Shown: piece by piece, positions 47,601-58,243 of the stretch
Layout: each line of letters starts with the position of its first letter
Position numbering within the stretch: position 1 is the first letter of the stretch
Source: Echinicola sp. 20G
GTDB taxonomy: Bacteria; Bacteroidota; Bacteroidia; Cytophagales; Cyclobacteriaceae
Direction: 5' to 3'
Assembly: GCF_015533855.1 (NCBI RefSeq)
Contig: NZ_AP024154.1
Coordinates: 5,167,501 to 5,231,500, forward strand
Length of the DNA: 64,000 nt
Position numbers and translations under genes: made by a program
The notes under the pieces: model-generated
What the model saw: only the letters and a program-made list of their open reading frames with translations
Databases searched by the model: none
Told to the model about the DNA's origin: nothing

Positions 47601-47608
47601 TATATTTG
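47601..47608 (+). promoter_or_regulatory. Candidate -7 element close to the ATG of the small Cys protein
   Basis: TATATTTG fits TAnnTTTG and ends 7 bases before ATG 47616, which would make the mRNA leaderless or nearly so. Confidence 0.35.
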
Positions 47609-47615
47609 CAGCGAA

Positions 47616-47996
47616 ATGCTAAAATCCTTGCTCCATATATGGCTTTCCATGATCATTGTGCTGAACAGCATGATCTTTTCGGTCATTCAAATGGATTATG
47701 CCTTGAACAAGGAATACATTACTGAAAATTTCTGTATCAATAAGGATAAACCTGAAATGCACTGTGACGGCAAGTGCTTTCTTACAGAACAGCTTCAGGA
47801 TGCTAAAGAGCAGCAAGAACAGCAAAACGGAGGGATCAACTTTAGCCGTGACTTTGGAATCTTTATCCTTTTGGAAAACAGTATAGCTTTTAACAGCTTT
47901 TACCCTCCTTATTTTGTAGGGAAGCCTATTTACAAAGAGCGTGACCTAAAGTTCCACCATAGCGACATTTTTCATCCCCCTCAATCTTTCGCCTAA
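47616..47996 (+). CDS. Small Cys-motif protein, paralogue of the product at 52282
   Basis: The start at ATG 47616 gives 126 residues; a longer form from 47535 is unlikely because a promoter-like element lies in between. One N-terminal hydrophobic segment (about 5-25) may be a signal peptide or anchor. It is followed by C40-x9-C50-x3-C54 (HCDGKC). The C-terminal half has FHPPQSFA at the end. The protein from 52282 has cysteines at exactly the same positions 40, 50 and 54, the same Asp27 and Glu33, similar length and a closing PPQ. The two are diverged paralogues. The spaced cysteines suggest metal or redox function. I do not know the family's name. Confidence 0.75.
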   Translation: MLKSLLHIWLSMIIVLNSMIFSVIQMDYALNKEYITENFCINKDKPEMHCDGKCFLTEQLQDAKEQQEQQNGGINFSRDFGIFILLENSIAFNSFYPPYFVGKPIYKERDLKFHHSDIFHPPQSFA

Positions 47997-48230
47997 ACCT
48001 TCTTAGTGAAGAATTAATCATATTCATACTCGAAATTACTTTCCTTCAATCAAGGTAATTGAAGAGCTATTGAAATGATTTGTCCTTCTTAGCCTTTTAT
48101 TGAGCCAATTAGGCTATTGATGTCACACCTATGAAGTGATCAATAGTCTGGAAATAGATAGCTCTAAAGGCTTTACATTAATTTCTATTTTACGTTTTGG
48201 CAAAAGCTAAACTATAGCGTATCTCTTATC

Positions 48231-49355
48231 ATGCGGTACTCAAAACTCTATTACATAGGGATAGTATTGGTATGTGCTTCGCTTGGTGCTTGTGGTAATG
48301 ACTCAGAAGAAATTCCCCAGCCACAAAACCCAACCTTGACGTTGCAGCATCCTGATTACTTTCCCAATGATATTCCAATGCCAGCGGATAACCCTTTGAC
48401 AGAAAAAGGGGTGGAACTGGGCAGAATGCTTTTTTATGAGAAGCAACTCTCCTCTGATGGCACCCTATCCTGTGGCTCCTGTCACCAACAGTCCAAGGCC
48501 TTTACTGATGGACTTCAGTTCAGTAAAGGGGTTGATGGCACATTGGGAGACAAAAACGCCATGTCACTGGCCAACCTGCATTGGACATCAAGGTTTTTCT
48601 GGGATGGAAGGGCGGCAACATTGGAAGAACAGGCCTTAGAACCGATCTCTGATGCCAGGGAGATGAACTTGGCCATTGATGAGGCAGTCGAAAGACTCCA
48701 AGCAGATGAGGATTATCCTGAACGCTTTGAACTCGCCTTTGGTACAGATCAAATCACACCAGACTTGATTGGCAAAGCCATCGCCCAGTTTATGAGGACT
48801 TTGGTTTCCGGGGATTCCAAATTTGATCTTTGGATCAAAGGAGAAACAGAGTTGACACCGACAGAACAGTTGGGTATGGAGCTTTTCTTTACCCATCCAG
48901 ATGCCTCCCTTCAGATCAGAGGAGGCAACTGTGGAGACTGTCATTTGGGTTTCCTGACTTCTGGTGATCGTAATGATTTTCTAGGTTTTCATAACAATGG
49001 ACTGGACGCCGATGAAAACTTGGAAAATGGCTTGTCCTCCATAACAGGCAAAGATACCGACAAAGGAAAGTTTAAAGCACCTACCTTAAGGAATATTGCC
49101 TTGACTGCTCCATACATGCATGATGGCCGTTTCCAAACTTTGGAAGAAGTGTTGGATCATTACAATGATCATGTTCAAACCAACAGCAATTTGGACATCC
49201 TCATACTGGAGGCCAGCAATGAAGCCATTGTGCCTGGGCAACCTGTAAAACTCCACCTTTCAGAGGAAGAGAAAACAGCCATAGTGGCTTTTCTCCACAC
49301 CTTAACAGATGAAAAATTTATTACGGATCAGCGTTTTTCTGATCCTTTTAACTAA
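48231..49355 (+). CDS. Di-haem cytochrome c peroxidase-family lipoprotein (MbnH-like)
   Basis: The 374-residue protein has a lipobox (SLGAC, Cys21) and two haem-attachment motifs: CGSCH (81-85) and CGDCH (234-238). The motif TAPYMHDGRF (about 292-301) supplies the Met296 region. This is the CcpA/MauG/MbnH architecture. The next gene encodes an MbnP-like protein. In MbnH-MbnP pairs of methanotrophs the di-haem enzyme oxidises a tryptophan of MbnP to kynurenine. Here the pairing is seen and the reaction is inferred. It starts the operon 48231-52656 (8-base gap to MbnP). Haem assembly must take place outside the cytoplasmic membrane. Confidence 0.9.
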   Translation: MRYSKLYYIGIVLVCASLGACGNDSEEIPQPQNPTLTLQHPDYFPNDIPMPADNPLTEKGVELGRMLFYEKQLSSDGTLSCGSCHQQSKAFTDGLQFSKGVDGTLGDKNAMSLANLHWTSRFFWDGRAATLEEQALEPISDAREMNLAIDEAVERLQADEDYPERFELAFGTDQITPDLIGKAIAQFMRTLVSGDSKFDLWIKGETELTPTEQLGMELFFTHPDASLQIRGGNCGDCHLGFLTSGDRNDFLGFHNNGLDADENLENGLSSITGKDTDKGKFKAPTLRNIALTAPYMHDGRFQTLEEVLDHYNDHVQTNSNLDILILEASNEAIVPGQPVKLHLSEEEKTAIVAFLHTLTDEKFITDQRFSDPFN

Positions 49356-49363
49356 TCAACAAA

Positions 49364-50110
49364 ATGAAAAACATAGCCATTCTATTGATAGCCATATTAG
49401 GTTTTACCGCCTGCAACAACAATGATAAAGATGAGCTTCCAGCTACCACGGAAGTCAACTTTTCATTTGCACACAGTCTTAATGGACAAGCTCTTGAACT
49501 TGAAAGTGAAGCTTATACATTACCATCGGGAGAAAGCTTTACACCAAGAAAATTTAAATACTACATTTCCAATATCACGTTTACCAATAGCACCAATAAT
49601 TATAGTTATAAGGTTGAGGATGGGTATTTCTTAATTGACCAAGCTGGAAAAACTGCTTTTAGTGTGGAAGTCCCTACAGCAGCCTACGACCAATTGACCT
49701 TTTACGTGGGCATTGACAAATCAAGAAACCACTCCACAGATCAGGTCGGAGACCTGGATCCCAACAATGACATGGTTTGGAACTGGAACACTGGTTACAA
49801 ATTCTTGGTATTGGAAGGAGAATGGGAGTACCAGTCTAGCGAACGTCAGGGATTGATTGTTCACATTGGAAACAATGACCCTGAAAGTGAGCAAAATTTC
49901 AAAGCCATCAGCTTCGATTTAGAAGATGCTGGAAAATCACTTGGGAACTCAGCTACAACCAGCCTTTCATTTGAAGCTGAGCTTAGCGAGCTATTTATCA
50001 ATCCCAATACTTTGAATATCCACGAACTGGAAAGCACTAGTATCATGGGAGGCGATCTAGCCATTAAAATTGCCAATAATTACCAAGAAGGGCTTTTCAG
50101 CCTAAAATAA
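49364..50110 (+). CDS. MbnP-like lipoprotein 1
   Basis: The 248-residue protein has a lipobox (FTAC, Cys17) and one MbnP-like domain (about 28-245): VNFSFAHSLNGQALEL, then KFKYYISNITF, YVGIDKSRNHS, LDPNNDMVWNWNTGYKFLVL, and IKIANNYQEGLF. The motif W139-N-W141-N-T-G-Y is diagnostic. In the methanobactin-linked MbnP a conserved Trp becomes kynurenine through MbnH and helps bind copper. The aligned double Trp fits that, but which Trp reacts here is not shown. It lies between two MbnH-like genes, 8 and 16 bases away, so cotranscription is near certain. Confidence 0.88.
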   Translation: MKNIAILLIAILGFTACNNNDKDELPATTEVNFSFAHSLNGQALELESEAYTLPSGESFTPRKFKYYISNITFTNSTNNYSYKVEDGYFLIDQAGKTAFSVEVPTAAYDQLTFYVGIDKSRNHSTDQVGDLDPNNDMVWNWNTGYKFLVLEGEWEYQSSERQGLIVHIGNNDPESEQNFKAISFDLEDAGKSLGNSATTSLSFEAELSELFINPNTLNIHELESTSIMGGDLAIKIANNYQEGLFSLK

Positions 50111-50126
50111 AATACAATCACCATCA

Positions 50127-51185
50127 GTGAAATCCCAGCGCTTACATAAGTTCATATTGTTCTTGGGCATAGGTATCTTGACCTCATGCCTGGACAATGT
50201 TTCACCAAATGAAGAGACAGGGCCGGAGTACTTTACACCAGCCCTCTCTTCTACTTTGGGACAAAATGACTTTCCACAACTGGAGCGCAACCCCATGAGC
50301 ACAGAAGGTGTAATTCTAGGAAAAACCCTCTTCTATGATAAAGCGCTTTCTCAGAATGGCAAGGTTTCCTGTGCAAGTTGTCATGATCCATCTATGGCTT
50401 TCACCGATGGATTGGGTTTGTCCAATCAGGGAGTATCCGGAACACCTTTGCACCGTCATGCTCCTCCCCTGTTCAACCTGGCCTGGCATAAGGGTCTCTT
50501 TTGGGATGGTGGCTCGGTAAACCTTGAATCCTTGGTATTTGGTCCGCTGACTCATCCAGATGAAATGGGTGCTGACTTGAATGAAGTTTTGCATTACCTA
50601 AGAGGGAGCTCTACCTACCCAGTCCTTTTTGAGGCTGCATTTAAATCAGACAGCATCACCAGTGCTTTGGTGGGAAGGTCACTCGCTCAGTTTACAAGAA
50701 ACCTGATTTCTCAAGACAGCAAATACGATCAATGGAAGCGAAATGAAATAGAACTAGACGACCCTGAAATTCAAGGCTATCAAGTCTATCAGAAAAACTG
50801 TAGCAGCTGCCATACGGAAGGGCTTTTTACAGATTTGTCCTATCATAACAATGGTCTGGATGCTTCTTACCCAAATCCTACAGAGCTGGAAGGAATCTAC
50901 CTAGGGCGGTATCGAATCTCCTTTGAGGAAAAAGATAGGGGAGCCTATAAAACTCCCTCATTAAGGAATATTGCTGTGACTGCTCCTTATATGCATGATG
51001 GTCGGTTTAATACTTTAGATGAAGTCCTTGAACACTATGACCATGGGGTTCAGGTTAATGAAAGTTTAGCCCCCCAATTGACAGACGGGATTCAACTTAG
51101 TGAAAAGGAAAGAACTGATCTTTTGGCTTTTCTGAATACCCTGACAGATTACGAATTTATCCACAACAAAGCTTACCAAGAGTAA
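50127..51185 (+). CDS. Second di-haem cytochrome c peroxidase-family lipoprotein (MbnH-like)
   Basis: The 352-residue product starts at GTG 50127 with a lipobox (LTSC, Cys21). It has two haem motifs, CASCH (82-86) and CSSCH (225-229), and TAPYMHDGRF at 286-295. It shares overall layout and key motifs with the product at 48231 but is clearly diverged. Two such enzymes with two MbnP-like proteins suggest either two parallel pairs or hetero-pairs. The gene is followed by the barrel gene after 10 bases. Confidence 0.9.
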   Translation: MKSQRLHKFILFLGIGILTSCLDNVSPNEETGPEYFTPALSSTLGQNDFPQLERNPMSTEGVILGKTLFYDKALSQNGKVSCASCHDPSMAFTDGLGLSNQGVSGTPLHRHAPPLFNLAWHKGLFWDGGSVNLESLVFGPLTHPDEMGADLNEVLHYLRGSSTYPVLFEAAFKSDSITSALVGRSLAQFTRNLISQDSKYDQWKRNEIELDDPEIQGYQVYQKNCSSCHTEGLFTDLSYHNNGLDASYPNPTELEGIYLGRYRISFEEKDRGAYKTPSLRNIAVTAPYMHDGRFNTLDEVLEHYDHGVQVNESLAPQLTDGIQLSEKERTDLLAFLNTLTDYEFIHNKAYQE

Positions 51186-51195
51186 GTGATTAGAT

Positions 51196-52278
51196 ATGAA
51201 AAAAATTATATTCCTAATATCCCTGATTACTTCTATTTCCTTAGTGACGAAAGAAGCCAAGGCTTGCGACAGTTGTAATTTCTTTGAATACAGCCTGCTC
51301 CAAAATCGAAGTTATATTGGGCTTTTTTACCGGCATCGGTCTTTTGGCAACTACGATCAATATGGCTATTCTTCACCTCCCCAAACTTCCAGTACTTACC
51401 TAAGTACTGCCTTCAAAAATGGAACTGCAGCCACCTATTCCAGCAATGCCAGAACTATTTCATCACCGGATTTTGATCCGGACTTTATCGTCATGCATGA
51501 GCCCGAAGGAACAGGCCTTTATGTCAATAAAACTGACCAAGACTGGGAAACTTATGAAACCGTGGAGCTTCGGGGCAACTTTATGTTCCAAAACAAATGG
51601 AACTTTACTTTTCTCCTCCCTTACGAATCCAACAGGGTGCATTATGAGAAGATGTTGGATTTGCCCAACCCTGTTCAGGACACCACACTATCGGTTCACG
51701 GTTGGGGAGACCTCACCTTAGCCATAGACCGAATTTTCTATGTTTATAACACTAAGGCCCGCCATACTTTCCGTCCAGGCTTAGCACTGCTTGCTCCTAC
51801 TGGACAATCTAGAAAAATAGCCCAAAACGGTACGCTTATGGATCCTATTATCCAACCTGGGACTGGTTCATGGAGTTATGTTGCCCGGTTTAACTACCAG
51901 CTTTTTTACAATAAAACTGGCCTGAATGCCGGATTTAGTTATAAGCAATCCACAGAAGGGGCGCAAAACTATCAATTTGGCAATAGTATTAATGGTTCCT
52001 TAGTTGGTTTTCATCAATTTTCGCTCAATGATAATTGGCTTCTGGTTCCAAATATTGGCACCTATTATGAACAATCCCAAAAGGATATCTGGGAAGGTGA
52101 AAAACAAAACCTTACAGGAGGGAAAGTCCTTTTTGGACAAGGAGGTCTGGACATCAATAGGCAAGAGTGGACTCTAAGCTTCCTTTGGCAGACTCCGCTT
52201 ACCCAAGACCTAAATGGCAACCAGATTCATCACCAAAACAGATTGAGTATTGGCATCATAAAAGCCTTCAAACTATAG
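51196..52278 (+). CDS. Outer-membrane beta-barrel protein with N-terminal CDSC motif
   Basis: The 360-residue protein has a signal peptide (cleavage near KEAKA, about residue 23) and then CDSCNFFEYSLLQNRS. The rest alternates hydrophobic and polar residues with many aromatics (SYIGLFYRHRSFGNY, WNFTFLLPYESNRV) and ends in LSIGIIKAFKL, as expected of a 10-14-strand barrel. I do not recognise a named family; transporter-like proteins of similar shape occur beside MbnP-like genes. The CxxC at the mature N-terminus on the periplasmic side could bind metal. Cotranscribed with the MbnH/MbnP genes. Confidence 0.75.
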   Translation: MKKIIFLISLITSISLVTKEAKACDSCNFFEYSLLQNRSYIGLFYRHRSFGNYDQYGYSSPPQTSSTYLSTAFKNGTAATYSSNARTISSPDFDPDFIVMHEPEGTGLYVNKTDQDWETYETVELRGNFMFQNKWNFTFLLPYESNRVHYEKMLDLPNPVQDTTLSVHGWGDLTLAIDRIFYVYNTKARHTFRPGLALLAPTGQSRKIAQNGTLMDPIIQPGTGSWSYVARFNYQLFYNKTGLNAGFSYKQSTEGAQNYQFGNSINGSLVGFHQFSLNDNWLLVPNIGTYYEQSQKDIWEGEKQNLTGGKVLFGQGGLDINRQEWTLSFLWQTPLTQDLNGNQIHHQNRLSIGIIKAFKL

Positions 52279-52281
52279 AAA

Positions 52282-52656
52282 ATGAAAACAGATTTTAAAG
52301 TACTGGTTCTGCTATCAGTACTTTGGATCAAAATCATGGCAGCTCCCATAGTATTTATTGATTTCAAAATCCGGCAGGAACGGTTGGCTCGTGAGGAATG
52401 TGTAGAACGTTATGCAACTATCACGGTTTGTCGGGCAAGCTGTGTGCTGAAAAGTAAGATCTCACTTACCACTGACGCCAAAGAAAAAAAGGAATCAATA
52501 AAAACTAGCAAATACCAAGAGTGGATGTTTATGGATGATATTCCAAGGTTTTCGCTTTATAAACCAATGCGAAAATCATCAGGCTACCTGAGGGAACATA
52601 ACCCAAGCCGTGGTTTTGTACAAGGTATTGATGAGCCTCCCCAAGTAAACGTATAG
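52282..52656 (+). CDS. Small Cys-motif protein, paralogue of the product at 47616
   Basis: The 124-residue protein begins 3 bases after the barrel gene. Its N-terminal hydrophobic segment (about 5-25) resembles a signal or anchor. C40-x9-C50-x3-C54 (ECVERYATITVCRASC) repeats the cysteine positions of the product at 47616, and it also ends in a PPQ sequence (EPPQVNV). Outside these features the two sequences differ widely. The location within the metallo-cluster makes a redox or metal-transfer role plausible, but nothing is proven. Confidence 0.75.
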   Translation: MKTDFKVLVLLSVLWIKIMAAPIVFIDFKIRQERLAREECVERYATITVCRASCVLKSKISLTTDAKEKKESIKTSKYQEWMFMDDIPRFSLYKPMRKSSGYLREHNPSRGFVQGIDEPPQVNV

Positions 52657-52784
52657 GATTCCTAGGGGACAAAACCCAACTTGATCACAGCCCCTCTGGC
52701 TTTACCTTTACAGAATAGGGTTGCCGTTGCAAATTTGTGATTATTTGAAACAAGTTGGAAAACATAAAAACAAGTAAGAAAAAA

Positions 52785-53582
52785 ATGAAAAATACATATA
52801 AACTTTTATTAGCACTTTTTACACTGGTTGGTTTTGCATCATGCGATGAAAATGTAGATGACGTGATGAACATCGAGGGAAGTGCCAACCTAAGCCTTCA
52901 AATAGCCCATACTTTCGGGGATGAAGCCTTCCAATTGGATCAAGAATACACTTCTACTGATGGGGCTTCTCTCAAATTCAACGAATTGAGGTACTGGATC
53001 TCTAATGTGGAACTGACCAAGGAAAATGGAGAAACATTCAAAGTAGCTGACTCTTATTACCTGATCCAAAACATGAAAGAACAGGTCGTTCAAGATAGAT
53101 TTGTTCTTCCTGATTCTGTAAGGGAAACTGTTGTACTAAAAAACATACCCACAGGAACCTATACAGGAATAAGCTTTGCAGTCGGTATCGACCCTATGTA
53201 CAATGATGACCTGACTCAAACTGCAGGGGAATTAAATGCACTGCAAAACATGTCTTATTCATCATGGATGTGGTTCACCAGTTATATCTTCACCAAGTTA
53301 AAAGGAACAACTTCTCACGGTGGAGAAGAAGTCGCTTTCTCTTTTGAGACCGGTTCCAATGACTGCTACAGAAACATCAACTTGCAATTAGAAGAGCCGA
53401 TTATGATTGCAGACAATATGGGGGACGAAATCACCGTTCAAAATGACATTGAAAAACTTTTTTCAGATATCAATTTTGATGGTGACCTAATGTCCGGAAC
53501 CCAATACGTCATTGGTGCTACCAAGCCCGAAATGATGATGAAGTTGTCCAACAATTACCAAGCTGCTTTTACGGTAGAATAA
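52785..53582 (+). CDS. MbnP-like lipoprotein 2
   Basis: The start at ATG 52785 gives 265 residues with lipobox (FASC, Cys20); an upstream TTG (52755) would add ten polar residues and is not preferred. The MbnP-like domain (about 35-262) has LSLQIAHTFGDEAF, ELRYWISNVEL, FAVGIDPMYN, W161-M-W163-F-T-S-Y and MMMKLSNNYQ. The WxW[NF]T motif is conserved with MbnP-like 1. A 128-base gap separates it from the preceding gene, so it may have its own promoter. Followed by a bidirectional terminator. Confidence 0.85.
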   Translation: MKNTYKLLLALFTLVGFASCDENVDDVMNIEGSANLSLQIAHTFGDEAFQLDQEYTSTDGASLKFNELRYWISNVELTKENGETFKVADSYYLIQNMKEQVVQDRFVLPDSVRETVVLKNIPTGTYTGISFAVGIDPMYNDDLTQTAGELNALQNMSYSSWMWFTSYIFTKLKGTTSHGGEEVAFSFETGSNDCYRNINLQLEEPIMIADNMGDEITVQNDIEKLFSDINFDGDLMSGTQYVIGATKPEMMMKLSNNYQAAFTVE

Positions 53583-53603
53583 GCGTTTATTTTAGACAAA
53601 AAT

Positions 53604-53632
53604 AAAAGGGAAAGCCAGTAGCTTTCCCTTTT
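53604..53632. terminator. Bidirectional terminator between MbnP-like 2 and the porin gene
   Basis: AAAAGGGAAAGC (53604-53615) and GCTTTCCCTTTT (53621-53632) form a perfect 12-bp stem with a 5-base loop; the flanking A and T runs let it work both ways. Confidence 0.88.
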
Positions 53633-53665
53633 ACGCTTTATTAACCTTTATATAAAATATGATGG

Positions 53666-55000
53666 CTATATGGCCACCTGAAACTGCATCACTGCCATTC
53701 CCTTTCGATCACTACTGATATATTCTCCTGAATTATTCAGTGTGAATATAGGCCGGCTTTGATAACCGAGAGACAACTTGGCCCTATTTCCATTGATCAG
53801 CCAGTTCATCCCTCCATCATACATGACCATGGGATCAGAAAAAAGCTCAAAATCGGAATATTGGCTGGAAATATAAGGCTGCAACGTTCCTGCCTTTCCC
53901 AATAAATCTTTTTGGAACAAATAACCCAATTGGGCATAAAAGGTATTTCCTGTACCAATCATAGGAAAAGCATTGCCAGAACCGTTGAAGCTTCCATTTT
54001 CATTGGTGCCGGTCGCAGGATTCATAGCACCTATGTTCCTGACATAGTTCTTTCCATAATCATTATGGCTAAAAGAAGCATAAGCTGTTACTGCCGTTCC
54101 TTTATTTGCATCAATTGGTTTATCATAGAAAACATCTACTGCAAGTAGCGTGAGGTTAGAACGGACAGTATCCACCCCATTATCAGCGTAATGCCACATG
54201 GCCTCTTTTTGGGTCATAAAACCCGCACCGATGTTAAACACACTTTTGGTTCCCAAATAGGAACCTACTTGATAGGGTGTGGTATTGGACTCCTTGTCCA
54301 TCAGCATGTATTTGAAATAACCGTGATATTGAGCGTATCCAGGCTCTGATGAAAACAAGGCGTTCTCTCCAATTTCCGGGGCTTGAACAGCTGAATTTTG
54401 GATGGACATGGGTTTGGATACGGCTACCCTATAATCCAGCTTTCCCAACTGCCCTTTTGCATAAACACTCAACTTTCGCACAAACTGGTCATTGACATCA
54501 TTGGTAGCCTGCTGATAAAGCGGTGCGTCCAAGGAAAGTATGGAGCCAATGGAAGGCGAAGAGTATCTTGACAGACCATTCCACCCCGTCAAACCTGCAC
54601 CCAATGATAGCTTCTCCTGCATCACCTTATACTCCCCAATTGCATCCAAGAAAAATAATCCTTGCTTTCTTGGAGACCGATAGGATAAATTGTTTTGGCC
54701 AAACTGGGTATAAAAGAAAACCTGATCAGAAAGTTGCCCATAAAGTTGGATTCTGGTTCTCCTCAAACCAATATCAAATAAGTTTTCATCTGGGGTTCCG
54801 TAGACTTCTGATCCAGGGTTAGCCTGTGTGTACCGAAGCCAAACTTGATTCAAAAAAGTACCTTTTACATAGTGGGAGCCATCCGCATTCAAATTGAACT
54901 TCAGTTCTTTCTTTTCTTTGGAATCCTCTTTAGAAGATTGCGCATGCATTTCTCCACAAATTAAGCTTAACCCTGTAAGCAAAATGCTAAAATATTTCAT
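53666..55000 (-). CDS. Porin (phosphate-selective porin O/P-like)
   Basis: The preferred start ATG 55000 gives 444 residues with a clean Sec signal (MKYFSILLTGLSLICGEMHA); a longer frame from 55108 adds an implausible prefix. The mature part has an acidic N-terminal linker and about 16 amphipathic strands (GTFLNQVWLRYTQAN, RRTRIQLYGQLSDQVFFYTQ), ending in AVMQFQVAI. This suits the OprO/OprP-type porin family of Bacteroidota. It is divergent from the TonB-dependent receptor and convergent with MbnP-like 2. An inverted TTGAC-N9-GTCAA (55041-55059) lies about 40 bases upstream. The transported ion is unknown. Confidence 0.75.
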   Translation of the reverse strand: MKYFSILLTGLSLICGEMHAQSSKEDSKEKKELKFNLNADGSHYVKGTFLNQVWLRYTQANPGSEVYGTPDENLFDIGLRRTRIQLYGQLSDQVFFYTQFGQNNLSYRSPRKQGLFFLDAIGEYKVMQEKLSLGAGLTGWNGLSRYSSPSIGSILSLDAPLYQQATNDVNDQFVRKLSVYAKGQLGKLDYRVAVSKPMSIQNSAVQAPEIGENALFSSEPGYAQYHGYFKYMLMDKESNTTPYQVGSYLGTKSVFNIGAGFMTQKEAMWHYADNGVDTVRSNLTLLAVDVFYDKPIDANKGTAVTAYASFSHNDYGKNYVRNIGAMNPATGTNENGSFNGSGNAFPMIGTGNTFYAQLGYLFQKDLLGKAGTLQPYISSQYSDFELFSDPMVMYDGGMNWLINGNRAKLSLGYQSRPIFTLNNSGEYISSDRKGMAVMQFQVAI

Positions 55001-55376
55001 TTTGAGTTTAATGTAAGAAAATTTTAAGTTGGTAATCGTATTGACATAGCCTACGTCAAAATTCCATCCCCATCCATATTTCGCCTTTTTTTTATGTGAA
55101 TATAGCATTATTCCTTATAAACGGTAAGAGGAGAATCGATTGGCAACTGCCGATGTGCTTAAAGGTTCTTCAAAAGGAAGCATGTCTAAACCTATTTAAC
55201 AATATCAAAATTGTCCTACCATAACTATAGCAAGAACTGTTTATACAGATTTTAAAGTAGTTATGAGATTTAAAAATTAGCCAAAATTTAAATTTAGCCT
55301 TATCTAATATTTTTTTTCTGTTTATTTAATTTTTAATTTCGTTTATCTAAACAAATATTTTAGAAAATATTAAAAC
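55001..55376. other. Divergent control region between porin and receptor genes
   Basis: No gene seen in 376 bases. Contains the inverted pair TTGAC/GTCAA (55041-55059) near the porin start, an AATCGATT palindrome (55134-55141) and a very AT-rich stretch (55260-55376) before the receptor. No cobalamin or other riboswitch was recognised. Confidence 0.5.
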
Positions 55377-57746
55377 ATGATAAAGTTATCCATTGCCTCA
55401 AGTATGCTATTTTTAAACAGCTTTCTTATTGCTTTTGCCCAAGAAACTGGAAGCATTTCTGGAAAAATCAATGTGGAAGACAAGGCGCCTATTTACGCCG
55501 CTATTCAAGTATTGGGTACAGAGCTTGGAGCAATGACGGATGCTAATGGTTCATTTCAGATTACGAATGTTCCAACAGGTGAACAAACTCTAAAAGTGAA
55601 ATGGATGGGCTACCAAACCATCCAAAGAAAAATCACTATCCTATCTGGAAAAGCCACCCACATTGATTTGGAATTGAAAGAGGATAAGCTCAATCTCAAT
55701 GAAGTTGTAGTGAGTGCTACCCGATATGAACTTGACCGAAAGGAAGCCCCTGTAGTGGTCAATGTCCTCAGCCCTAAACTTTTCAACGCCACCCAATCTT
55801 TAGCACTTTCTGATGGGCTTAATTATCAGCCTGGAGTAAGGGTAGAAACCAATTGTCAGAATTGTGGTTTTACGCAGGTAAGACTTAATGGTCTGGAAGG
55901 TGCCTATTCCCAGATTTTGATCAATAGTCGCCCTGTATTTAGTGCCCTAAACAGTGTCTATGGATTGGATCAAATCCCGACCAATATCATCGAACGAGTA
56001 GAGGTGGTCAGAGGTGGTGGATCTGCTTTGTACGGTTCCAATGCCATTGCTGGCACCATCAATATCATCACTAAAGAGCCCGTAGAAAATACTTGGCAGG
56101 TCGGTTCTAACCTTGCCTTGATCGATGGACAATCTCCTGACAAAATGCTTAACTTCAATGGATCCATCACCAGTGAAGACCTTAAAACCGGGGTGACTTT
56201 TTATGGGATGTTTAGAAACCGGGACAGCTATGATGCCAATGATGATGGTTTTACAGAACTCACCACCTTAGAAAACAACACCTTTGGATTAAAATCCTTT
56301 ATCAAACCTTCTGAACTGAGCAAAATCACCTTGGATTTCAGTGCGATTAAAGAATATAGAAGAGGTGGCAATGCATTGGACCTGGCTCCCCACTTCACGG
56401 ATATCACCGAGGAACTGGAGCATAATACAGTTATTGGAGGCTTGACTTATGAGCTTTTCAGCCAAGACCACCGTAACAAATTCTCTACTTACATTTCTGG
56501 CCAAACGACTCAGAGAAACAGTTACTATGGAGGCTTGGGAGGTGGAAGAACTGAAGCTGACAGTATTTTGGCAGCTAACGCCTATGGCGTCACTGATGAC
56601 CTTTCCTTGGTTGCCGGCTCTCAGTTTTCAAGGAGTTTCACCAATAATGATGTAGTCATTTTTGGGTCGGAATACCAATTGAGCAAAGTAAGAGATGAAA
56701 TTGCAGGCTATAACCGCTTGGTCGATCAGCGCGTCCAGTCTATCGGTTTCTATGGACAATATGAATGGCGACCCAACGATAGACTTACAGCCTTGGCTGG
56801 TGGAAGGTTTGACCATACATTGGTGGACGGCTTTTATCGCATTAGTGACATAGAAAGATCTTCCGATGTGTCCACCAGTGTACTTAGCCCACGGGCCAAT
56901 ATCCTCTACGATATCAACCCCAAACTTCAGCTGAGAACTGGTTATGCAAGAGGGTTCAGGGCTCCACAAGCTTTTAACGAAGACCTTCATATCTCTTCTG
57001 TAGGTGGTGAACCAACCTTTGTAATCCTTTCGGACGATCTAAAAACAGAGCTATCGGATGCCTACACCCTTTCTATAAACTATTCCAGTAATTTTGGCGA
57101 TACCCAATTCAGCTTTCTTGCAGAGGGATTCCACACCAAACTGAAAAGACCCTTTACCACTGTCAGCACCGGGGCCACTTTACCCAATGGTTCTATTTTG
57201 CAGGAAGTCCGAAACGGAACAGGTGCATCTGTGCAAGGAGGGAATTTTGAATTGAGCCTCTCCCCTTCTTCCAAATTGCTTTTCCAAGCAGGTGGAACAC
57301 TTCAGCAGTCTGAATACCAAAATGAACAAGTCCTTTTTGAACCTGAGGAAGACAATGAAACAGAGCCTACGGTCAGCACCAAACAGTTTGTCCGTTCACC
57401 AAATGCCTATGGATACCTCGCTTCCAACTGGGCCATCAATGAGCACCTTGCACTAGACTTGACTGGAACTTATACGGGCTCCATGATCGTTCCCCATGTG
57501 ATCAGTCCTACCGGATACCTGGACTTGGTGGACAGCAAAGCCTTTCTAGATGCTAATTTAAAGCTTTCCTACCATTTTGACCTGATGCAGGATTTTCACT
57601 TAGAGTTAAGTGGTGGGGTACAAAATATGTTTAACAGCTATCAAAATGATTTTGATCAAGGCCCTTTAAGGGATTCCAACTACATTTATGGCCCGGCTAG
57701 GCCAAGGACCTATTTCTTTGGAATCAAAATAGGGAACTTCCATTAA
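55377..57746 (+). CDS. TonB-dependent receptor with Cys pair in the plug
   Basis: The 789-residue protein has a signal peptide (cleavage near FAQE, residue 22). A carboxypeptidase-regulatory-like domain (about 24-105; GSISGKINVEDKAPIY) is next. The plug (about 112-235) includes EVVVSATRYELDRKEAPV, C160-QN-C163 (ETNCQNCGFTQVRLNG) and RVEVVRGGGSALYGSNAIAG. The barrel ends in FFGIKIGNF. It resembles the small, non-SusC type receptors for siderophores, cobalamin or metal chelates. The double Cys in the plug is unusual in general but recurs in a Bacteroidota subfamily as I recall it. Its neighbours point to metal uptake (inference). It is cotranscribed with the thioredoxin gene after 17 bases. Confidence 0.9.
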   Translation: MIKLSIASSMLFLNSFLIAFAQETGSISGKINVEDKAPIYAAIQVLGTELGAMTDANGSFQITNVPTGEQTLKVKWMGYQTIQRKITILSGKATHIDLELKEDKLNLNEVVVSATRYELDRKEAPVVVNVLSPKLFNATQSLALSDGLNYQPGVRVETNCQNCGFTQVRLNGLEGAYSQILINSRPVFSALNSVYGLDQIPTNIIERVEVVRGGGSALYGSNAIAGTINIITKEPVENTWQVGSNLALIDGQSPDKMLNFNGSITSEDLKTGVTFYGMFRNRDSYDANDDGFTELTTLENNTFGLKSFIKPSELSKITLDFSAIKEYRRGGNALDLAPHFTDITEELEHNTVIGGLTYELFSQDHRNKFSTYISGQTTQRNSYYGGLGGGRTEADSILAANAYGVTDDLSLVAGSQFSRSFTNNDVVIFGSEYQLSKVRDEIAGYNRLVDQRVQSIGFYGQYEWRPNDRLTALAGGRFDHTLVDGFYRISDIERSSDVSTSVLSPRANILYDINPKLQLRTGYARGFRAPQAFNEDLHISSVGGEPTFVILSDDLKTELSDAYTLSINYSSNFGDTQFSFLAEGFHTKLKRPFTTVSTGATLPNGSILQEVRNGTGASVQGGNFELSLSPSSKLLFQAGGTLQQSEYQNEQVLFEPEEDNETEPTVSTKQFVRSPNAYGYLASNWAINEHLALDLTGTYTGSMIVPHVISPTGYLDLVDSKAFLDANLKLSYHFDLMQDFHLELSGGVQNMFNSYQNDFDQGPLRDSNYIYGPARPRTYFFGIKIGNFH

Positions 57747-57763
57747 AGTTTCCCAACAAAAAA

Positions 57764-58243
57764 ATGCAACACTCAAAGACCCTATTCATATTACTGATAA
57801 TGTTTTTCTTGGGCAAGGATGTTCTTGCTCAGGAAAGCATTCAATGGCTCTCATTTGAGCAATTGGATGACTCCCTTTCCAAGCAGCCCAAGAAAGTTTT
57901 CATCGACTTCTATACGGATTGGTGTACCTATTGTAAAAAGATGGACCGTAAAGTATTCACCAAGCCTGAAGTCATCCAAAAAATTAACAGCGAATTTTAT
58001 GCAGTTAGAATGGATGCTGAAAGCCGGGACACCATCCAATTTGATAGGCATGTATTTTTCAATCGACAAGCGACTGACAAGAGGGCTGGCATCCATGACC
58101 TGGCCATGTTATTAGGCCAAAGAAATGGAACATTTGCCCCTCCTACTATGATTGTGCTGGATAATGACTTTAAGGTATTGGACAGAAGATTTGAATACCT
58201 ATATAGTCAAAAATTAATGGAATGGCTTAGCAATTTTGAGTGA
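57764..58243 (+). CDS. Periplasmic thioredoxin-fold protein
   Basis: The 159-residue protein has a signal peptide (cleavage near VLAQE, residue 23) and a thioredoxin fold of the DUF255/Trx_7 type: VFIDFYTDWCTYCKKMDRKV with Cys54 and Cys57, the downstream cis-Pro region APPTMIVLD. The product should reduce or transfer disulfides in the periplasm. It follows the receptor gene after 17 bases and ends 2 bases from a convergent gene. A possible role is keeping the cluster's Cys-containing proteins reduced, such as CDSC, C40/C50/C54 and NCQNC. That is inference. Confidence 0.85.
   Translation: MQHSKTLFILLIMFFLGKDVLAQESIQWLSFEQLDDSLSKQPKKVFIDFYTDWCTYCKKMDRKVFTKPEVIQKINSEFYAVRMDAESRDTIQFDRHVFFNRQATDKRAGIHDLAMLLGQRNGTFAPPTMIVLDNDFKVLDRRFEYLYSQKLMEWLSNFE

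Follow-up and report, generated by a model that had tools for sequence, protein, structure and literature searches.

What metal, and what kind of control, does a gene set serve in which MbnH-like and MbnP-like lipoproteins alternate with an outer-membrane barrel and small cysteine proteins? We asked this of a 64,000-nucleotide (nt) stretch of Echinicola sp. 20G (NZ_AP024154.1, positions 5,167,501 to 5,231,500; hereafter the window), for which a sequence-only reading had proposed a complete metal system, perhaps for copper. All of the genes it named are present as open reading frames (Table 1), including the barrel with AKA-CDSC, the TonB receptor with NCQNC and a thioredoxin-like protein; its porin is a weak NCBIfam match. 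Gene order, motifs, spacing, clades and folds were established by sequence or model, with profile searches on the host genome (one contig, 5.79 Mb). Our explanation, to which we assign a probability of about 0.6, is a copper operon in which the two small proteins, C3a and C3b, would act as copper-sensing leaders by ribosome pausing. The copper reading of the gene set is likely, and the leader role of C3a and C3b probable.

C3 proteins as candidate leaders

We use C3 for the small protein family of C3a and C3b, both of which carry the cysteines at 40, 50 and 54 noticed earlier and place a PP 4 residues from the C-terminal end. The three cysteines are invariant across 20 aligned C3 proteins. The shared pattern is Cys-x9-Cys-x3-Cys (x9 in at least 90 of 112), missing as defined in 2 of 114, and a hydrophobic, transmembrane (TM) segment lies N-terminal to it in 162 of 174. 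PP occurs within the last 12 residues of 110/114 C3 proteins, against 26/1271 neighbouring genes and 13/282 neighbours of 100–180 amino acids (aa). Spacing was tested with a hidden Markov model (HMM) of the N-terminal half only, taking the CxxxC nearest 67 where there were several. Among loci drawn with the barrel profile, 81 of 82 matches had PP in the last 12 residues, with a CxxxC-to-PP spacing of 65–72 in 81/81; the remaining match (locus L144) has PP 11 residues before its end. A second sample, 60 chosen loci away from MbnP with 62 C3 genes, gave PP in 62/62 and a spacing of 62–71. It is this half-protein test that carries the spacing claim. Inserts between the first two Cys were discarded as an argument for a ruler, since in some rows an additional upstream Cys had been counted as an insert. 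The linker is near-random in sequence (identity 0.10–0.13 against 0.07; 85 loci).

The median gap from C3 to the next module gene is 127 nt (n = 75), against 2.5 and 4 nt at the following joints; loci away from MbnP have 93 nt here (n = 60) and 37.5 nt at the second gap (n = 44). Near-fixed spacing, near-random linker and long gap favour regulatory leaders over the parts of a metal path for which the small proteins had been taken. They also bear on a rival in which C3 is a stable membrane-anchored carrier whose three cysteines pass Cu(I) on to MbnP or an oxidase and whose PP is an interaction tail. Invariant cysteines, the prevalent TM segment and adjacency to copper genes suit a carrier; a linker near-random in sequence yet near-fixed in length does not, nor do the long gap and the RGPP leaders that occupy the C3 position in two loci (below), and we consider a carrier unlikely.

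In CruR of Bordetella pertussis an export signal and CxxC are followed, after 45 residues, by RAPP three residues from the end, and a long gap lies behind the gene; CruR heads a TonB-transporter/PepSY_TM operon, and MbnPH-like genes occur in operons headed by its homologues (PMC9426467). C3 resembles CruR in small size, export segment, Cys pair, near-C-terminal PP at a nearly fixed distance and long gap behind, and likewise heads TonB-transporter/PepSY_TM and MbnPH-like operons. It differs in having CxxxC plus a third Cys rather than CxxC, a spacing of ~67 rather than 45, and F[HRKQ]PP rather than RAPP. CutF of Rhodobacter capsulatus combines CxxxC with Sec export and a proline-rich C-terminus (PMC9973294); its CxxxC-to-PP spacing is 45, unlike that of C3. 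The same study counts 5,334 CutF-like proteins (Bacteroidota share 19% raw, 40% normalised), taken as <150 aa with PP in the last 15 residues, an N-terminal export segment and a same-strand gene within 1000 nt. C3 shares with these CxxxC, a Sec-type export segment, the PP placement and the same-strand gene behind, and C3a and C3b lie within those sequence limits (126 and 124 aa; gaps of 234 and 128 nt; export segment by hydropathy over the set). No description of C3 turned up in the literature searched, but C3 may be among the Bacteroidota clusters of the CutF-like survey, which has 29 clusters (PMC9973294).

Of 395 phylum genomes, 11 have a DUF2946 match (5 above cut-off), and the host genome has none. 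All 11 retrieved proteins end in RAPP or RGPP, and a labelled TonB receptor lies within two genes in 6. In L262 and L263 an RGPP leader stands directly 5′ of MbnP–MbnH, where C3 stands elsewhere; these operons run RGPP leader, MbnP, MbnH, a lipoprotein (YtkA-like by eye) and a TonB receptor. A 2025 survey describes RAPP/RGPP leaders of copper genes across lineages, groups such as Bacteroidota excepted (PMC12992588). As far as can be told from sequence, C3 would work like a CruR or CutF leader and is no DUF2946 member by profile.

Rho loading sites are expected to be C-rich relative to G, and the gaps 3′ of C3 show such a C-over-G excess (0.104 against 0.040 in 196 control gaps; p 2.2e-4, kinship uncorrected). 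RNA hairpins there are stronger than shuffles; having no clear excess over other gaps, they were dropped as support for the leader. Upstream, the -7 element TATATTTG ends 7 nt 5′ of the C3a start codon, giving a near-leaderless start. The same arrangement precedes 30/82 C3 genes, against 1/96 MbnP, 1/113 MbnH and 1/82 barrel genes, the searched stretch often being longer for C3; away from MbnP it precedes 11/62 C3 genes and 2/102 downstream genes.

C3 profile matches occur in 157 of the 395 phylum genomes. In the sample away from MbnP, a TonB receptor lies directly 3′ of 41/62 C3 genes and within two genes in 50/62; the other first genes are unlabelled (14), barrels (3) or another C3 (2), and two C3 genes have no same-strand gene behind them. 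Pfam confirmed PepSY_TM, COX1, SCO1 and YtkA genes in C3-headed operons. Three loci (L204, L206, L210) have the order C3, TonB receptor, PepSY_TM, like Bordetella cruR-crtA-crpH; Pfam identified the PepSY_TM of L204 and L210, and that of L206 was named by eye. In L245 and L246, two small genes and one of COX1 size lie behind C3, a C3-headed haem-copper oxidase operon in which Pfam confirmed COX1 and DUF2911 in L245 only.

Several observations weigh against a copper operon with such leaders. PF11162 (DUF2946) was absent among the families found when 20 C3 proteins were searched with E values of up to 10, and none of 174 C3 proteins has a RAPP/RGPP end, so that a pause at F[HRKQ]PP is assumed. 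In most C3 proteins PP is preceded by F and then by H, R, K or Q. The fixed CxxxC-to-PP spacing could be explained by a folded domain. The RNA 3′ of C3 does not clearly fold more strongly than that of control gaps (median z -2.25 against -1.42, p 0.056), and the -7 element test fails in 52/82 and 51/62 C3 genes. Away from MbnP, 12 of the 62 C3 genes have no receptor within two genes, and the first gene is unlabelled in 14/62. Both above-cut-off SCO1 genes of the host sit away from the operon. CruR and CutF respond to copper in opposite senses, so C3 may act with either sign.

Two MbnH–MbnP lineages and the barrel

Both products taken for MbnP match PF20243 well above its gathering score of 27 (MbnP1, 157.1 bits; MbnP2, 138.3 bits), in agreement with the earlier assignment, and are its only matches in the host genome; the family is present in 97/395 phylum genomes. 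With TIGR04052 (MbnP) they score 51.4 and 42.3 bits, below the cut-off of 140. The expected WxW motifs are there, as WNW in MbnP1 and WMW in MbnP2. Searching both proteins against the PDB with phmmer gave no match; a profile search recovered the crystallised MbnP 7l6g of Methylosinus trichosporium, whose copper is reportedly held by a His and a Met, with a kynurenine alongside. MbnP1 shares its fold and M-W-W-H pattern. The His of HxG and the Met lying two positions ahead of WxW have aligned counterparts in 7l6g; MbnP1 has both and MbnP2 neither. The 7l6g entry name carries a four-Cys motif; apart from the lipobox Cys, MbnP1 has no Cys and MbnP2 one.

Among 145 MbnPs of the loci studied, the HxG position holds His in 126, Glu in 16 and Gln in 3, and the 16 Glu-type proteins, MbnP2 included, form one clade (SH-aLRT, the Shimodaira–Hasegawa-like approximate likelihood ratio test, 98; quick tree). 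Three Dyadobacter MbnPs (L113:6963, L117:6916, L120:6918) have lost the His along with both WxW Trp, consistent with a joint site; the MbnHs 3′ of them still score 431–446 bits.

MbnH1 and MbnH2 match the CCP_MauG profile (204.3 and 173.9 bits), and their best NCBIfam model is TIGR04039 'MbnH family' (275.7 and 233.3 bits, below its cut-off of 362.85). PDB 6e1c we take to be MbnH of M. trichosporium. Compared with the MbnP/MbnH of that organism, the locus here carries MbnHs of two lineages and an additional MbnP that lacks the His. All 15 loci with a Glu-type MbnP also hold an MbnH of the MbnH2 clade; outside Echinicola, this clade occurs in 10/10 Glu-type loci against 6/98 loci without that type (Fisher 2e-10, kinship uncorrected; 6/10 are Dyadobacter and at least one locus is entered twice, L034 and L099). 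MbnH1 falls in a separate clade, mostly of first genes of MbnH–MbnP–MbnH (H-P-H) sets, in a FastTree tree that came with a long-branch warning. A second H-P-H form takes its first MbnHs from a different 12-row clade (Pseudarcicella, Siphonobacter, Flectobacillus, others). The MbnHs of L085, recorded as 'Cellulophaga sp. BC115SP', are near-identical to those of Flectobacillus longus (L084), and the record name is probably wrong.

With the two MbnHs, and likewise the two MbnPs, in separate clades, simple duplication of a pair was rejected: the 'duplicated pairs' are instead two old, unequal lineages, one without the presumed copper ligands. On our reading, MbnP1 and MbnH1 would be the copper pair, and MbnP2 and MbnH2 would keep the Trp pair without those ligands. 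MbnH2 is retained without MbnP2 in five congeners and may thus also act on MbnP1.

MbnH and MbnP might instead be a redox or peroxide-defence pair whose metal link is incidental, as membership of MbnH in the di-haem peroxidase superfamily and a Glu-type MbnP2 without presumed ligands would allow. Against this, MbnP1 retains the fold and M-W-W-H pattern of the copper protein MbnP and copper genes surround the module, and we regard it as the least probable of the alternatives considered.

The barrel matched no Pfam family above chance. It is 16% identical to the COG4313 channel 4rl8, from which it differs in an N-terminal Cys motif and a low-confidence loop of ~55 residues.

The neighbourhood is conserved above chance. 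MbnP occurs in 9/10 other Echinicola genomes, and all nine keep the order C3a-MbnH1-MbnP1-MbnH2-barrel, porin (opposite strand), receptor and thioredoxin; C3b-MbnP2 is found in four of them. In place of the proposed 'two pairs', the constant core is MbnH1-MbnP1-MbnH2. The constant unit is H-P-H plus barrel, with C3b-MbnP2 optional. We drew 80 named loci by barrel profile alone, and within 5.5 kb on the same strand found MbnH in 77, MbnP in 76, C3 in 72 and all three in 70. Of the ten without the full set, six are cut by a contig end and the C3 of L112 lies farther off; L111 lacks C3, L140 has C3 only and L149 lacks MbnH. Going by record titles, the loci come from Cytophagales, Sphingobacteriales, Chitinophagales and Saprospirales, with one from Ignavibacteria and one from a Kapaibacterium. 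Among the genes 3′ of the module, named by eye, are SCO1-like genes in 8 loci, YHS-like genes in 7 and genes for His-rich lipoproteins in 12.

Operon boundary and the linked TonB receptor

The gaps run C3a-234-MbnH1-8-MbnP1-16-MbnH2-10-barrel-3-C3b-128-MbnP2 (nt), and by layout 47616–53582 is a predicted operon closed by a terminator-like hairpin (Table 1). The 'full outer-membrane uptake set' of the sequence-only reading is not supported: the operon ends at that hairpin, and the receptor has its own conserved palindrome and no C3 5′ of it. TTTAG-N6-CTAA lies upstream of the receptor in 10/10 Echinicola loci, and a similar box (L160) lies 5′ of the host genome's only DtxR-family gene, which precedes a TroA-like metal-binding protein (by eye). 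The MntR link rests on these two observations. Genome-wide, the exact palindrome has 1 site against 1 for a control pattern, and a looser form 9 against 13; with mismatches inside the window it is not above shuffles. The box is suggestive of manganese or iron rather than copper. NCQNC was discarded as a copper mark, CxxC being present in the scanned plug region of 1/51 C3-headed receptors.

PF05114 (MbnB family) has no match in the one-contig genome, and a methanobactin system was rejected, the core peptide not having been searched; the earlier view of an MbnH/MbnP-type system without methanobactin synthesis is supported, and its metal is probably copper. The missing PF05114 also counts against reading the whole stretch as one uptake system for a copper peptide or chelate, imported by the receptor and processed in the periplasm by MbnH/MbnP and the barrel. 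Receptor, porin and thioredoxin do lie beside the operon in 9/9 congeners, and MbnT-type receptors adjoin MbnPH in methanobactin operons. The intervening hairpin, the receptor's own MntR-like box and an Echinicola receptor profile that, for most of the 80 loci, finds no such receptor next to the module make this improbable.

Table 1 Features of the locus, in window coordinates.
Feature	Position	Strand	Basis
-7 element TATATTTG, Bacteroidota-type	47601..47608	+	read from sequence
C3a, 126 aa, proposed copper-sensing leader: TM helix, Cys 40/50/54, CxxxC-to-PP spacing 66	47616..47996	+	
Long gap 3′ of C3a, 234 nt, proposed control region	47997..48230	+	
MbnH1, di-haem MbnH-like lipoprotein, H-P-H triad clade	48231..49355	+	profiles and tree
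MbnP1, canonical type: M-x-W-N-W and HIG	49364..50110	+	
MbnH2, di-haem MbnH-like lipoprotein, clade accompanying Glu-type MbnP	50127..51185	+	profiles and tree
Outer-membrane beta-barrel, CDSC directly after signal peptide	51196..52278	+	
C3b, 124 aa, proposed second leader: Cys 40/50/54, spacing 64	52282..52656	+	
Long gap 3′ of C3b, 128 nt	52657..52784	+	
MbnP2, Glu type: WMW, ETG replacing HIG	52785..53582	+	PF20243 138.3 bits
Terminator-like hairpin, predicted on both strands	53603..53633	+ (also -)	
Porin-like protein; linked, outside operon	53666..55108	-	NF040900 44 bits against cut-off 150
Palindrome TTTAG-N6-CTAAT (MntR/DtxR-like) 5′ of TonB receptor	55293..55308	+	
TonB-dependent receptor, NCQNC in plug; linked, perhaps another metal's regulon	55377..57746	+	PF00593, PF07715
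Thioredoxin-like protein, 3′ of receptor	57764..58243	+	PF13899 44.7 bits

Proposed mechanism and meaning

In the copper operon that we favour, the C3 TM helix would engage the membrane during synthesis, and CxxxC would bind copper once the ribosome reaches the C-terminal PP, ~65 residues behind. Copper binding would set whether the ribosome remains paused, whichever the sign, and the pause state in the gap behind C3 would govern downstream expression through Rho-dependent termination as in CruR, or through other attenuation. In the envelope, MbnH would oxidise Trp of the MbnP WxW to kynurenine, and MbnP1 would bind Cu(I) via Met, His and the modified site. The Cys-tipped, COG4313-like barrel may pass copper across the outer membrane, with its CDxC end in the lumen as a gate; we infer import rather than export. 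MbnP2 and MbnH2 would form a second variant without the His.

More broadly, and at even odds in our judgement, C3 proteins may be a Bacteroidota-wide class of arrest peptides that sense metal and have a new end, in most cases F[HRKQ]PP. A ruler of 62–72 residues would set CxxxC just outside SecYEG at the pause, so that periplasmic copper is read while the chain is being made; such leaders would replace RAPP/RGPP leaders and govern MbnP-MbnH-barrel, TonB-receptor/PepSY_TM and oxidase operons.

Little has been described of how Bacteroidota acquire copper. Leaders of one family, by which operons could be recognised from sequence alone, would make many unannotated TonB receptors and the MbnP-MbnH-barrel module easier to approach. 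The Glu-type MbnP, accompanied by an MbnH clade of its own, raises the question of what purpose Trp chemistry serves once the presumed copper ligands are lost. If our reading is true, the non-RAPP end of a sensor that reads copper as it is synthesised would be a new arrest motif.
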